The translations under genes were made by a program, and so were the position numbers. Positions 30,505 to 60,812 of a stretch of 64,000 nucleotides of DNA are shown here, in pieces. Under the pieces are notes generated by a model that was not told the DNA's origin, searched no databases, and saw only the letters and a list, made by a program, of their open reading frames with translations. Source of the DNA: Sphingosinithalassobacter tenebrarum (GTDB taxonomy: Bacteria; Pseudomonadota; Alphaproteobacteria; Sphingomonadales; Sphingomonadaceae). Every line of letters starts with the position of its first letter. Position 1 is the stretch's first letter. Location: positions 3,379,001 to 3,443,000 of the forward strand of contig NZ_CP049109.1 of the NCBI RefSeq assembly GCF_011057975.1, given 5' to 3'.

Positions 30505-31361
30505 CCGACCCGGTTTTCGATACCGCCGCGCGCGACCGGTTCCGCGACCTCTATCCCGAACAGGCCGGGCAGCTGACCCATCACCTCGCCGGGCACAGGC
30601 TGTTCGAGCTCGAATCGCTGATCGCGCTGGCGGGCCGCATCCGCCCGGTCGATGTCGAGGCCAATCTGGCCGACCTGCCGATCGGCGTCGATCCCGAAAG
30701 CGTCCGCGAAACCGGCCTGTCGGTCGAACAAACGATCCGGTCGATCGAGGAGAATGGCAGCTGGATGGTGCTGAAATTCATCCAGCAGGACCCCGAATAT
30801 GCCGCGCTGCTCGATCAGCTTCTCGATGAACTGGTGCCGCTGGTACGGCCCAGCACCGGGGCGATGATCCAGCGCGAGGCATTCGTCTTCATCTCCTCGC
30901 CCGGCGCCGTCACGCCCTTCCACATCGATCCCGAGCACAATATCCTGCTCCAGCTGCGCGGATCGAAGACGATGACTGTCTTCCGCCCCGACGACTGGGA
31001 CGTGATCAGCCCCGATTGCGTCGAGGCATTCCATGCCGGCGGCCACCGCAACCTGCCCTATCGCGAGGAAATCGCCACGCACGGCACGCCGATCACCATC
31101 CATCCGGGCGAAGCGATCTATGTGCCGGTAAAGGCGCCGCACTGGGTGCAGAACGGGCCCGACGTGTCGATCAGCTTTTCGATCACCTGGCGTTCGGAAT
31201 GGAGCTATCGCGAGGCGCATGCCCACGGCCTCAACCAGATGCTGCGCGACGCCGGACTGAAGCCGAGCGCGCCGAAGCGCTATCCGCATCAGAACATGGC
31301 GAAGTCGGTCGCCTATCGCGCGATCCAGAAGGTCCGCCGCGCCACCGGCAAGGTAGCCTAA
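30501..31361 (+). CDS. Cupin/JmjC-like Fe(II) oxygenase-type protein
   Basis: This 286-residue protein has the Cupin_8/JmjC core. The HxD metal motif is seen in VTPFHIDPEHNILLQLRGSKTMTVF (His and Asp), and the distal part TIHPGEAIYVPVKAPHWVQNG supplies the third histidine. An Fe(II)/2-oxoglutarate hydroxylase is the natural expectation, but the target is unknown. It is translationally coupled (ATGA) to the GNAT gene. A dispersed element begins 14 bases behind its stop. Confidence 0.82.
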   Translation: MTDPVFDTAARDRFRDLYPEQAGQLTHHLAGHRLFELESLIALAGRIRPVDVEANLADLPIGVDPESVRETGLSVEQTIRSIEENGSWMVLKFIQQDPEYAALLDQLLDELVPLVRPSTGAMIQREAFVFISSPGAVTPFHIDPEHNILLQLRGSKTMTVFRPDDWDVISPDCVEAFHAGGHRNLPYREEIATHGTPITIHPGEAIYVPVKAPHWVQNGPDVSISFSITWRSEWSYREAHAHGLNQMLRDAGLKPSAPKRYPHQNMAKSVAYRAIQKVRRATGKVA

Positions 31362-31590
31362 CCCGCAAAAAATTCTGTCCTACAGGAGCCTTCCCGACAT
31401 ATCTGACCAGTCCGCTGCCGTTTTCGCAAAGGACAGGCCATGCCGCGCTTCGCACCCAAAGCCTCTCACGCGCGCGTATGCGTACGCGTATGCACGCGGG
31501 CACGCGCCCTCGCGCGCGGGAGCGCGCGCACGCGTGTTACGTCGCGACCCGGTGCGAACTTTGCACGGTTTTCCGCCGTTTCCGGCGGCA
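31362..31590 (+). repeat. Dispersed 3'-flanking element, copy A
   Basis: Directly behind the cupin gene lies CTGTCCTACA (31375-31384). A variable stretch follows, then an alternating purine-pyrimidine GC tract (about 31470-31534) and a 32-base core at 31535-31566 containing TTACGTCGCGACCCGGTG. A CCGCCG/CGGCGG hairpin at about 31574-31589 ends it. Copy B at 48121-48264 (minus strand) has the same order of parts and 31 of 32 identical core bases. The function is unknown. It could be a 3' UTR element, a small RNA or a remnant mobile repeat. Confidence 0.75.
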
Positions 31591-31643
31591 GGACAGCTTT
31601 CGGCCGAGCGCGCCCGGCTTCCCGCGCCTGCCGCCCAACGCGC

Positions 31644-32585
31644 TCAGCGCTTGGCGGCACCCATCGCGACCAGCGTCATGTACCGCGCCGGGGTTTCGTT
31701 CGATCCCGCCGACAGGCTGAGGATCGCACCGGCCTCCTGCGCCTGCGATCCGAATACCACGCCGCCGATCGCCAAAGGCAGATTCGAATTACGGAACGTT
31801 CCCGACAGCGCGGCGCGGGCGTTGCTGCCGTCGAAATTCGCAGACACGTCCGCCGTGACGAGGTCGATGTCTGCGCCGCCCGATTCCGGTGTTCCGACGA
31901 ACACGATATGCGCCGATACTGTTTCCGCGCCGAAATTCACTGTCATCCGTATCGTGCTGTTCGACAGCGAATAGGTCTCGAAATCGCCGGTCCCCGTCGC
32001 GACGACGGCATAGCCGAAAACGCCGGCCGCGCCCTGATAACTATAGCTTCCCGATGTGGGCAGATCGGCCGTCCGCGTGGGAATGCCGGTCAAGGCAAGG
32101 ATGTGAGAGCCGCTGTCGGACGCGACGACATAGTCGATGAACCGCAGATAGTGGAACGGATCGCTGCCGTTGGGCTGCCGAACATTGAAAAAGCTGCCGT
32201 CGGTCTTGCGATAAAAGGCCGAATCCTGCGGACTGGCGGGGTCGATCTCGTCCGCGGTGAAGGTTCCCGAATAGGCGCCGTTGTCGATGACATAGGTTTT
32301 CGCATCGGCGTCATATTCGAATTCGATTCCCTCGCCGAAACCGTTGACGCCGTAAATCTGCGGCACGCTCGGGCCGTGGATATTCCAGAAACCCGACTGG
32401 GCGCTTTGCAGGCGCACTTGCCCCGAAAGGTCCGCATAGAGCGGGTAGGAACTGGTCGGCGATGGCGAAGGCGTCACCGGAGGCGTCACGACGGACCCGC
32501 CCCCCGAAGAAGACCCGCTGTTGCCGCCGCTGCATGCCGAAAGCAGGGCGGCGGCACTTGCCGCCACCAGAAAACCGCGCTTCAT
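31644..32585 (-). CDS. Lipoprotein with a TbpB-like beta-barrel domain
   Basis: This 313-residue protein has a lipoprotein signal (MKRGFLVAASAAALLSAC) and a Gly/Ser/Pro linker. The C-terminal half resembles the transferrin-binding-protein B beta-barrel (SYSYQGAAGVFGY, MTVNFGAETVSAHIVF, ALSGTFRNSNLPLAIGGVVFG). In free-living bacteria such lipoproteins are surface-exposed or bind heme or other ligands, often with slam exporters. None is nearby. It converges on the cupin gene across copy A of the dispersed element. Confidence 0.75.
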   Translation of the reverse strand: MKRGFLVAASAAALLSACSGGNSGSSSGGGSVVTPPVTPSPSPTSSYPLYADLSGQVRLQSAQSGFWNIHGPSVPQIYGVNGFGEGIEFEYDADAKTYVIDNGAYSGTFTADEIDPASPQDSAFYRKTDGSFFNVRQPNGSDPFHYLRFIDYVVASDSGSHILALTGIPTRTADLPTSGSYSYQGAAGVFGYAVVATGTGDFETYSLSNSTIRMTVNFGAETVSAHIVFVGTPESGGADIDLVTADVSANFDGSNARAALSGTFRNSNLPLAIGGVVFGSQAQEAGAILSLSAGSNETPARYMTLVAMGAAKR

Positions 32586-32702
32586 CTATTCCCCTCCCCC
32601 AAGATGCCTGAAAAGGCAAATTCACGGCAATTGCATAGAACGACTTGCGAAACTGCGCGAGATATTTTGGCGTACTGGATCAGGAAAGCTGTCGACCGGT
32701 TT

Positions 32703-34376
32703 TCAATTGGGTTCTTCTTCACCCAGCTTCCACACACGTTCGCCGCCGATCCAGGTTTCGAGCACCTGCGTCTCGCGAAGCTGGCGCGCCGAAACGTTGA
32801 GCGGATCGCGATCGACGATGATGAAATCGGCCTGCATTCCCGGCGCCAGCCGCCCGACCTTGTCCTCGGCAAAGCCTGCATAGGCGGCATTGATCGTATA
32901 GGCGGCCCAGGCCTGTTCGCGCGTGACGATTTCCTGCGGCTGCCATCCGCCGAACGGGCGCAGGTCGGCGTCCTGACGCGACACCGCCACTGCCCAGCCG
33001 ATGAACGGCTTGGGATCCTCGACCGGGAAGTCGGAGCCGAAGACGAGCAGCGACCCATTGTCGATCATCGATTTCCACGCATAGGCCCCCGCCAGCCGGT
33101 CCGGCCCCAGCCGCGCCTCTGCCATCGCCATGTCGCTGGTCTGGTGCACCGGCTGCATCGACGCGATGATGCCGTGCTTGCCGAAGCGCGGCAGGTCCGC
33201 CGGGTCGACGATCTGGGCATGTTCGATGCGCCAGCGCCGGTCGCCGTCGAACGTGTCGACCAGTTCGTCGATCACGTCGAGCACCTGGCTGTTGGCGCGA
33301 TCGCCGATCGCGTGCACGGCGATCTGGAAATTGTCCATCGCGCCGCGCACCATCAGATTGCCGAGCTGATCGTCGCTGAGGAAACCCAGCCCGGTCTGGC
33401 CCGGCGCATCGGCATAATCGGCCTTGAGCCACGCCCCGCGCGATCCCAGCGCGCCATCGGCATACAGCTTGATCCCGCCCATGCGCAGCCGGTCGCCATA
33501 GAGCCAGGGCGTCGGCCCCTGTCCGCCCACTTCCAGCGCCGTATCGACGCCGTGGCCATAGGACATGATGCGAATTTCGAGCAGGCCGATATCGCCCATC
33601 CGGCGATAGAGCAGCCAGTCCTCCACCGTCGTACCCATATCGGCCGTCGCCGTGACCCCCTGCGCGAGCAGATAGCGCTGCGCCGCGAGGAAAGCCGCAT
33701 TGCTTTCCCGTGGCGTGGGCTGGGGCACATGATCGCGGATCAGGTTCATCGCCGCGTCGACCAGAATGCCGATCGGATTGCCCTGCGCGTCGCGCTCGAT
33801 CCGGCCGCCGGCGGGATCGGGGGTGTCCTTGGTGATGCCCGCCGCCTGCAACGCGGCGCTGTTCACCCACAACGCGTGGCCGTCGACCCGATCCAGCACG
33901 GTCGGGCGATCGCCGGTCACGCTATCCAGCTCCTGCGCGGTCGGGAAACGGCCGAGACCCCAGATTTCCTGGTTCCAGCCGCGCCCCACGATCCATCTGG
34001 CGCTGTTGTCCCCGGCCCATTGGCCGACCTGCGCCAGTGCCGCATCGAGGCTCTGCGTACCGGTGAGGTTGAGCTGCGAAAGCTGGAAGCCCAGCCCCAT
34101 GACATGGCCGTGTCCATCGATCATGCCGGGCAGCAGCGTGCGCCCTTCCATGTCGGCGCGCCACTCCATCCCCTCGGGAAAATCGTCGCGGCGGTCGAGA
34201 TCGAACAGCTTCACCACGCGGCCGTCGGACCCGACGATCATCGCGTTGAAGCGGACGACATTGCCGTCCTCGTCGAGCGTCAGCCCGTTGACGTTGTAAA
34301 TGATGCCGTCGGCAAAGGCCGCCGCCGGCATGATCAGCATGGCCAGCGCCAGCAACAACCGCATCATCCGTTTCAA
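32703..34376 (-). CDS. Secreted amidohydrolase, YtcJ-like
   Basis: This 557-residue metal-dependent hydrolase of the amidohydrolase superfamily has a signal peptide (MKRMMRLLLALAMLIMPAAAFA). The TIM-barrel metal motif GMIDGHGHVMGLG is present, as are later ligands (VHAIGDRAN, RIEHAQIVDP) and VFGSDFPVEDPKPF near the end. Relatives are annotated as exoenzyme regulators or N-acyl hydrolases, and the substrate is not known. The start overlaps the end of the upstream dehydrogenase gene by 4 bases. Confidence 0.88.
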   Translation of the reverse strand: MKRMMRLLLALAMLIMPAAAFADGIIYNVNGLTLDEDGNVVRFNAMIVGSDGRVVKLFDLDRRDDFPEGMEWRADMEGRTLLPGMIDGHGHVMGLGFQLSQLNLTGTQSLDAALAQVGQWAGDNSARWIVGRGWNQEIWGLGRFPTAQELDSVTGDRPTVLDRVDGHALWVNSAALQAAGITKDTPDPAGGRIERDAQGNPIGILVDAAMNLIRDHVPQPTPRESNAAFLAAQRYLLAQGVTATADMGTTVEDWLLYRRMGDIGLLEIRIMSYGHGVDTALEVGGQGPTPWLYGDRLRMGGIKLYADGALGSRGAWLKADYADAPGQTGLGFLSDDQLGNLMVRGAMDNFQIAVHAIGDRANSQVLDVIDELVDTFDGDRRWRIEHAQIVDPADLPRFGKHGIIASMQPVHQTSDMAMAEARLGPDRLAGAYAWKSMIDNGSLLVFGSDFPVEDPKPFIGWAVAVSRQDADLRPFGGWQPQEIVTREQAWAAYTINAAYAGFAEDKVGRLAPGMQADFIIVDRDPLNVSARQLRETQVLETWIGGERVWKLGEEEPN

Positions 34377-35239
34377 CGCTTGATCCTCCGCACCAGCGCG
34401 CTGGTATCCTGGCGCCCGCCGCCCATCCCCTGCACCTCGGCATAAAATTGGTCGACCAGCGCAGTCACCGGCAGCGATGCCCCGTTCCGTTTCGCCTCAT
34501 CGAGCGCGAGGCCCAGATCCTTGCGCATCCAGTCAATCGCGAAGCCGAAATCGAATTCGTCCTTCGCCATCGTGCCCCAGCGATTGTTCATCTGCCAGCT
34601 TTGCGCGGCACCGCCCGAAATCGCTTCGAACACTTTGTCGAGATCGAGGTCGGAGGCCTGGGCGAAACGCAGCGATTCGGACAGGCCCTGCAGCACGCCG
34701 GCGATCGCGATCTGGTTGCACATCTTGGTCGTCTGACCGGCGCCCGCCTGCCCGCAATGGACGATGCGCGCGGCATAGGCGGCCATGATCGGTTCGGCCT
34801 TGGCCATCGCCGCGTCGCTGCCGCCACACATGATCGAAAGCTTGCCGTTCTCCGCGCCCGCCTGGCCGCCCGAAACCGGCGCATCGACGACCAGCAGGTC
34901 GCGCGCCGCGCCCTCCTCGGCGAGCCGCCGCGCGATGGCCGCCGACACCGTCGTGTGATCGACGAACAGCGCGCCCTTCGCCATCGCGGCGAACGCGCCT
35001 TCGCTGCCCAGTGTCACCGCTTCCAGATCGTCGTCGGTGCCGACACAGGCAAGCACCGCGTCGCATCCCGCCGCCGCCGCAGCGGGCGTATCCGCGACGC
35101 TGCCGCCATAGCGCGCCGCCCATGCGTCGGATTTGCCGCGCGACCGATTATAGACCGTAACGTCATGCCCCGCCGCGACGAGATGCCCCGCCATCGGCGC
35201 GCCCATGACTCCCATTCCGATAAATGCCAGCTTTGCCAT
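34373..35239 (-). CDS. Beta-hydroxyacid dehydrogenase (3-hydroxyisobutyrate dehydrogenase family)
   Basis: This 288-residue NAD(P)-dependent enzyme shows the Rossmann motif FIGMGVMGAPMAGHL, substrate loop DAPVSGGQAGAENGKLSIM and the catalytic Lys in GQTTKMCNQIAIAG. It is a paralogue of mmsB at 46212-47096 but not in the valine cluster, so tartronate semialdehyde or another beta-hydroxyacid may be the substrate. It is coupled (ATGA) to the amidohydrolase and divergent from ilvA. Confidence 0.85.
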   Translation of the reverse strand: MAKLAFIGMGVMGAPMAGHLVAAGHDVTVYNRSRGKSDAWAARYGGSVADTPAAAAAGCDAVLACVGTDDDLEAVTLGSEGAFAAMAKGALFVDHTTVSAAIARRLAEEGAARDLLVVDAPVSGGQAGAENGKLSIMCGGSDAAMAKAEPIMAAYAARIVHCGQAGAGQTTKMCNQIAIAGVLQGLSESLRFAQASDLDLDKVFEAISGGAAQSWQMNNRWGTMAKDEFDFGFAIDWMRKDLGLALDEAKRNGASLPVTALVDQFYAEVQGMGGGRQDTSALVRRIKR

Positions 35240-48012: not shown

Positions 48013-48101
48013 CGCCCCTGTAACGGCAGGGGCCTATCTCTCTAACCATGAACGCTGTCTCTCGTTGAGAGAGACATGGGCCCCTGCCTGCGCAGGGGCG
48101 A
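48013..48101. repeat. Inverted pair of the CGCCCCTG-CAGGGGC repeat, second location
   Basis: The left arm (48013-48041, CGCCCCTGTAACGGCAGGGG) and the right arm (48072-48101, CCCCTGCCTGCGCAGGGGCG) are inverted. They match the pair at 25162-25290 in reverse orientation: the AGATAGG-type flank is on the left here and on the right there. It lies between the two crotonase genes. Confidence 0.75.
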
Positions 48102-48120
48102 TGAAATCATCCGACCGGCG

Positions 48121-48264
48121 GTTTTCAGAAAACCGCGGTTTTGCGTGCGAAGTTCGCACCGGGTCGCGACGTAACATGCGCGCGTACCCGCGCACACGCG
48201 CGCGCGAAGTTTAAAATTCACGCACCCGCCTGACACAAAATCATCGTGTAGGACAGCATTGCGT
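48121..48264 (-). repeat. Dispersed 3'-flanking element, copy B
   Basis: Read on the minus strand, CTGTCCTACA (48256-48247) lies 8 bases behind the stop of the 3-hydroxyisobutyryl-CoA hydrolase gene. It is followed by a CG-rich alternating tract and the 32-base core at 48176-48145 (TTACGTCGCGACCCGGTG inside), which differs from copy A by one base. The palindrome AAAACCGCGGTTTT at about 48130-48143 ends it. Inside the core GTGCGAA and TTCGCAC form a perfect 7-base inverted repeat. Confidence 0.75.
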
Positions 48265-60545: not shown

Positions 60546-60614
60546 CCTTTTGGCGTCGCTCGCTCGAGGGTTTTCGCCTCGTTCGCCCGGTGCACCCCGC
60601 CCGCGCAAAGGAAT

Positions 60615-60812
60615 CGACCGTGAAGGGCAGGTCTCCTGGCTCCCGGGTCATCGCTGGCGGCGCCGCCTTCCCGAAGTGTCCTTCAGTGGCGAATGGCGCC
60701 GGGCTGGCCGGTTACAGTTGCGGGGGCAGCGCCGGGATTGCGGAGGCATCGCCGCCGCGCACCGGACTTCCCTTTTGATCCCTTTCGGGAACCCGTCACG
60801 CCGGGTCCTTTA
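60615..60812 (-). ncRNA. Cobalamin riboswitch
   Basis: On the minus strand the hallmark sequences are in order: a GGTTCCCGAAAGGGA stem at 60793-60777, AAAAGGGAAGTCCGGTGC at 60777-60760, the core GCCCCCGCAACTGTAACC at about 60729-60712 and the B12 box GCCAGGAGACCTGCC at 60640-60626. It lies about 130 bases upstream of btuB and should shut off the uptake genes when cobalamin is abundant. Ends are approximate. Confidence 0.93.

Follow-up and report, generated by a model that had tools for sequence, protein, structure and literature searches.

Attenuators of the trpL type consist of a promoter and a short leader reading frame whose stop codon overlaps the start codon of the next gene. REP, BIME, and MITE repeats represent a different class of short, intergenic sequences that are present in many copies. 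A third kind of sequence is found in the leaders of rRNA and suhB, which carry a boxA motif (PMC5725501).

Two copies (A and B) of an element that partly resembles each of these systems are located in the window, the 64,000-nucleotide stretch of the Sphingosinithalassobacter tenebrarum genome analyzed here. Like trpL-type leaders, members of this family have a promoter-like start and a short leader frame with a stop that overlaps the next start codon. Unlike those leaders, neither the peptide nor the frame is conserved, a near-identical nucleotide core lies inside the frame at dozens of loci, and no conserved hairpin is present at the core. The elements are short, intergenic, and multi-copy, as are REP, BIME, and MITE repeats, but they lack a conserved palindrome, occupy many orthologous positions, share a promoter-like box, and carry a core that differs by species at the same sites. 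With boxA-bearing leaders (PMC5725501), they share a GYTCTTT-type motif near the inferred transcript start, but this motif is carried by only some elements and never together with an ATG at that place. No account of the element was found in the literature searched, which comprised titles and the beginnings of abstracts among the papers listed, mostly outside subscription journals.

Copies of the element and their layout

The 26-base core GTTACGTCGCGACCCGGTGCGAACTT has two matches in the window, compared with none in 100 shuffles. An initial annotation had described these two matches as parts of an element in which a left box, CTGTCCTACA, is followed by a C/G-alternating tract, a 32-base core, and a hairpin. 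Indeed, both copies are situated where that annotation placed them, 31 of their 32 core bases are identical, and the gap between the box and the 32-base core is 150 nucleotides in one copy and 70 in the other (Table 1). The common order and orientation of the parts were upheld as well, whereas conservation of the 3′ hairpin was not, since its helix is paired in 60.8% of the cells of the alignment.

Table 1. Positions of the parts of copies A and B in the window
Feature	Position	Strand	Basis or remark
Copy A left box CTGTCCTACA, promoter-like	31375-31384	+	Sequence; 13 nt past the cupin stop (31359-31361)
Copy A −10-like CATATC (inferred)	31398-31403	+	Sequence; spaced from the left box roughly as usual
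Copy A purine-rich AAAGGA and ATG	31428-31442	+	Sequence and S. portus ortholog; frame from the ATG open through the core
Copy A alternating C/G tract	31470-31535	+	Sequence; alternation; phase measured against the core in 22 copies
Copy A core (right module), GTTACGTCGCGACCCGGTGCGAACTT plus TGCACG, 32 bases	31535-31566 or 31536-31567	+	Sequence and copy comparison
Copy B left box CTGTCCTACA	48247-48256	-	8 nt past the stop of the ECH_2 gene in front
Copy B alternating C/G tract	48176-48208	-	Sequence
Copy B 32-base core (right module)	48144-48175	-	Its 26-base core is 48175-48150
Copy B AAAACCGCGGTTTT palindrome	48129-48142	-	Hairpin not conserved among copies

Copy A is flanked by the cupin gene and by an oppositely oriented gene, and copy B lies between two enoyl-CoA hydratase-type genes, the second of which is approximately 150 nucleotides away. 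In the S. portus ortholog of copy A, the sequence GGAGGG and an ATG occupy the same position as the AAAGGA and ATG of copy A. The frame that opens at this ATG of copy A extends for 1001 codons (31440-34445) antisense to a gene called at 31644-32585, and is probably a by-product of high G+C content. A scan of leader frames revealed that neither window copy has a coupled leader or an ATG at the preferred distance behind the box. Two other features of the window were observed. A palindromic repeat of the GCCCCTGCCTGCGCAGGGGC type, REP-like by eye, is present at 48014-48102 between copy B and the downstream gene, with a diverged form at the same place in S. portus (locus L080), and a cobalamin riboswitch (Rfam RF00174, 113 bits) is located at 60609-60811 on the minus strand.

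The cassettes constitute a real and conserved multi-copy family. When up to three mismatches are permitted, the 26-base core has 22 copies in the genome and none in the reversed control, and the left box with at most one mismatch precedes 19 of the 22. A sequence profile built from an alignment of 25 copies, and run with strict filters on 121 genomes of the genus, detected 34 core copies in S. tenebrarum and 20 in S. portus, gave one weak match in each of three others, and found no match in the remaining 116. The many copies are in keeping with the dispersed element that had been proposed. One exact core pattern occurs in 23 named stretches, including 7 from S. portus, 12 from the MAG Sphingomonas sp. 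SAT22, and 4 from unrelated bacteria that look like chance matches. This particular core is restricted to a lineage represented by S. tenebrarum, S. portus, and SAT22.

The left box is nearly invariant and by itself has 45 exact copies in the genome, compared with 8 for the reversed control. With at most one mismatch, it is present upstream of the core on the same strand in 29 of the 34 copies in S. tenebrarum and in 17 of the 20 copies in S. portus, and a search of both strands at all of these copies found no box upstream of a core on the opposite strand. Placement just behind stop codons, a further part of the initial description, does not extend to the family as a whole. Among the 46 copies with a left box in the two species, 31 follow a co-directional gene, with 10 of these 31 lying within 30 nucleotides of its stop codon, and 15 have an upstream gene in the opposite direction.

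A second core, GTGTCTCTTTTGTCTCCTTTC, is present in the S. tenebrarum genome in 14 copies (none in the reversed control). The spacer in this family (F2) is as a rule a G-rich tract, and the spacer in the family of copies A and B (F1) is the alternating C/G tract. In two elements (L060/L206 and L067/L205), both core families occur in a row; the first core is degenerate in L067, and L060 lies upstream of trpS.

The promoter-like head and the leader frames

The region that follows the box was examined in 110 elements from the fetched loci in which a left box and a right module occur within 230 nucleotides; orthologs were counted separately, and because the elements were picked by pattern, chance picks may be included. 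An ATG is present at an offset of 34 to 46 nucleotides from the box in 48 of these elements, compared with 7 to 26 of the 110 in six other 13-nucleotide windows. The same place is occupied by a boxA-like motif in 21 of the 110 when a loose pattern is used. The strict sequence GYTCTTT is found there in 18 of the 110, in the next 19-nucleotide window in 6, and upstream in none. The preferred distance from the box to the ATG or boxA-like motif is approximately 38 nucleotides, and that from an inverse form of the box is approximately 30. No element among the 110 carries both an ATG and a boxA-like motif, an exclusion that is partly forced given that both sit at the same place.

A second head, TGTAGGATTT, is partly an inverse box and contains the reverse complement of TCCTACA; it is present in four copies in this genome, with the ATG at an offset of 30 to 32. 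An exact GTTC-N7-GTTC sequence, which we take to be the LexA/SOS box of Alphaproteobacteria, is located 17 to 18 nucleotides from the box in 10 of the 46 boxed copies and also precedes dinB in S. tenebrarum. The fact that the other 36 of 46 copies lack an exact match indicates that this sequence is not a defining part of the cassette. Over the 110 elements, the −10 region exhibits only a weak consensus at the expected offset. For Novosphingobium aromaticivorans, more than 80% of sigma-70 promoters have been described as lacking a conserved T at −7 (PMC8407463). The rRNA leader of S. tenebrarum carries GCTCTTTGACATTG, which is close to GYTCTTTAANA, the gamma-proteobacterial boxA consensus given in PMC5725501.

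Leader frames that start at the ATG and run past the core end preferentially at the next gene. We considered a frame to be coupled if its stop codon is at, or within 12 nucleotides of, an ATG followed by 100 or more open codons (60 or more if the open frame runs off the locus). By this definition, and with orthologs from several genomes taken separately, 23 of 43 leader frames stop at or near the next start; for the two shifted frames the counts are 3 of 28 and 2 of 34 (p = 2.9e-7). Four of the 23 (L038, L097, L085, and L092) are unlikely to represent real coupling, since these frames are long and continue for hundreds of bases past the core before they stop. For S. tenebrarum alone, 48 entries were reduced to 29 by dropping 5 without a left box, 12 without an ATG, and 2 whose frame stops before the core. 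Coupling was observed for 17 of these 29 read-through leaders, compared with 6 of 38 in shifted frames (p = 5.6e-4), leaving 12 uncoupled. The 17 include one element twice and hence represent 16 leaders, of which 15 are 37 to 60 codons in length and one is 103 codons, and stop and start codons overlap in 12. A putative translationally coupled leader frame, with a stop at the next start more often than in shifted frames, is present in about half of the copies that have an ATG; the two window copies are not among them.

The coupled next genes include ruvA, dnaX, dapB, thiD, and trpS, as assigned above the NCBIfam cut-off. For others, the best match falls below this cut-off: gspF, hrpB, moeA, scpA, tryptophan dioxygenase, phoH (which exceeds the cut-off in Pfam), rsmB, biotin carboxylase, and a dinG-like helicase, several of which were queried as fragments of no more than 400 residues. 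The next genes at L065 and L214 have little or no match. When orientation is called by codon-position G+C rather than by a gene finder, as it also was for the neighbors of copies A and B and for the 46 boxed copies, the downstream gene is co-directional in 25 of 34 F1 copies (9 are not) and in 13 of 14 F2 copies.

Any of the three reading frames can carry a leader through the core. For example, the core of L018 and that of its S. portus ortholog L086 are read in different frames, both of which end at the same ATGA, and the orthologs L062, L052, and L100 likewise differ in core frame and share the ATGA end. The leader frame of dapB is kept in S. portus, where it spans 42 codons and its end overlaps the gene in the same way. 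Since even orthologs differ in how the core is read, the core is kept as nucleotides rather than as peptide.

This finding bears on the idea that the elements encode a family of conserved micro-proteins. One core frame reads VTSRPGANFAR and is open in many copies, as such a family would require. Nevertheless, the core frame varies among copies and orthologs, the core of L010 contains an in-frame stop codon, and a search with one leader peptide found no protein homologue. A conserved peptide in the core was rejected on these grounds of frame, and frame switching largely refutes the micro-protein reading, to which we assign only a very slight chance of being correct.

Concerted change of the core between species

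The core is built on a tandem half-repeat with half-sites of 9 to 11 nucleotides. Cores of one species are nearly identical to each other, whereas those of different species differ. Its second half, TGCGAACTT, is preserved as sequence in the 25 aligned copies and exhibits an identity of 0.98 between S. tenebrarum and S. portus at 16 orthologous sites. For the first half, identity is 0.59 between orthologs and 0.56 between non-orthologs, and reaches 0.77 and 0.69 among paralogs within the two species, in a comparison wherein 2 of the 32 sequences (L066 and L083) are shifted by an indel. The motif GTGCGA is present in the first half of 12 of the 16 S. portus copies and in none of the 16 S. tenebrarum copies, and TCGCGAC is present in 9 of the 16 S. 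tenebrarum copies and in none of those of S. portus. All 12 SAT22 stretches carry GTGCGAA; having been selected by their second half, they are informative only about the first. Thus, the first half of the core has changed in step between species, which could result either from conversion between copies or from selection by a shared trans factor. Such concerted evolution fits a site that acts at the level of DNA as well as one that acts at the level of RNA.

The layout is wider than this core. Twenty hand-picked regions from further species of the genus have CTGTCCTACA and the same kind of spacer in front of a different tandem-repeat core with species-specific letters, such as TGTGACCTTTGTGACCTTTC. 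When up to three mismatches are permitted, 25 of the 121 genomes contain TGTGACCTTTGTGACCTTTC, and one of them (G156) has 44 copies, compared with 2 hits overall for the reversed control. A further 20 regions that we examined come from the 44 matches in G156. In another genome (G059), all six core matches read GTGTGAACTTTGTGAACTTCC.

Possible roles of the cassettes

We consider there to be an even chance that the elements are a dispersed family of promoter-plus-leader regulatory cassettes whose core is read by a putative trans factor, a reading that is drawn from sequence comparison. The box would represent the upstream part of a promoter, with transcription predicted to start at or near the ATG or boxA-like motif, and the leader might be either translated or equipped with an antitermination-type signal. 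Within the leader, the core would then be a site that the putative factor recognizes by its sequence and its direction. This factor may be an RNA-binding protein, an RNA, or a roadblock protein, and would tune expression of the next gene. Both window copies, like the others that lack a coupled gene, would be stand-alone or decayed units. Gene regulation does not account for everything, given that 9 of the 34 F1 copies are opposite in direction to the downstream gene and that 12 of the 29 leaders, as well as the two window copies, are uncoupled.

If this reading is correct, many basic sphingomonad genes, with roles in replication, repair, and amino acid and cofactor synthesis, would share one leader signal, and the concerted change of the core would document how a regulator and its targets have evolved jointly in nature. 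One trans factor would be predicted for each core family. A more elaborate form of the model, which we advance only tentatively, holds that these are genus-wide leaders of housekeeping genes whose transcript is kept open over the tandem-repeat core by a frame-agnostic leader frame or by a boxA. A trans factor with species-switching specificity would then force simultaneous rewriting of the core at dozens of loci.

The core could instead be a binding site at the DNA level, located in intergenic promoter regions and recognized by a regulator, a roadblock terminator, or a chromosome-organizing protein, with the leader frames arising as incidental read-through of stop-poor, GC-rich sequence. We regard this possibility as rather unlikely, although the concerted letters within species, the tandem half-sites, and the existence of right modules without a left box (L058, L064, and L258) are what it would predict. 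It leaves the frame-specific coupling unexplained, and it must contend with the finding that every copy with an upstream box (46 of 54) has this box on the strand of the core. Functional RNA structure, which had been anticipated in the initial annotation, was not evident. Base pairs of the core and of the 3′ palindrome hairpins exhibit no covariation beyond that of shuffles (75.5% paired cells compared with 75.1%), the predicted consensus structure is weak (−3.06 kcal/mol), and the copies match no Rfam family. These results make a family of structured small RNAs improbable, even though a promoter-like start combined with a conserved 3′ part would yield RNAs of roughly 90 to 170 nucleotides, as estimated from the spacings, and some copies lack a co-directional downstream gene.

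Similarly improbable is a non-autonomous mobile or REP-like repeat that has spread in this lineage. The cores are near-identical and lineage-restricted, as expected for such a repeat, and 18 of the 34 S. tenebrarum copies could not be matched to an ortholog among the 20 copies in S. portus. In addition, S. portus lacks the cassette in its counterpart of the TetR-obg spacer, but the segment missing there, of approximately 400 nucleotides, is not element-sized, and the close upstream sequence of obg is kept. Sixteen of the 20 S. portus copies are at orthologous sites, which suggests that the copies are mostly old rather than mobile. Moreover, 174 bp of one copy (L002) have no match in plasmids or phages, one exact core pattern is absent from viral contigs, and neither terminal repeats nor target duplications were seen by eye. 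Thus, of the two possibilities named in the initial annotation, the small mobile element is weakened and the structured RNA is unsupported, whereas the broader proposal of a functional dispersed element is strengthened by the many copies, the conserved order and orientation, the orthologous retention, and the concerted core.

For the cassette reading that we prefer, two concrete mechanisms for the core were evaluated, and both failed, as Rho-type composition and 16S pairing gave negative results. A Rho-dependent attenuator was rejected by composition, with a median C/G ratio over 78-nucleotide windows of 0.90 for F1 and 0.80 for F2. At the core of F1 the median is 1.00, and the core of F2, taken by itself, is slightly enriched in C (1.46). 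A tether to rRNA was rejected after four cores were paired with locus L191 (4486 bases, holding the 16S gene), for which 25, 59, 60, and 56 of 60 shuffles were as good or better.

Some individual loci exhibit other arrangements, all noted by eye. In G156, core modules are duplicated in tandem, 53 to 110 nucleotides apart, at L255, L265, L266, and L258, and the TGA within the core of L258 appears to be the stop codon of the preceding gene. The box CTGTCCTACA also occurs at genes without a core (L169, L174, and L197), in some cases with an AACC...GGTT-like palindrome near the box. L163 and L169 encode similar-looking proteins.
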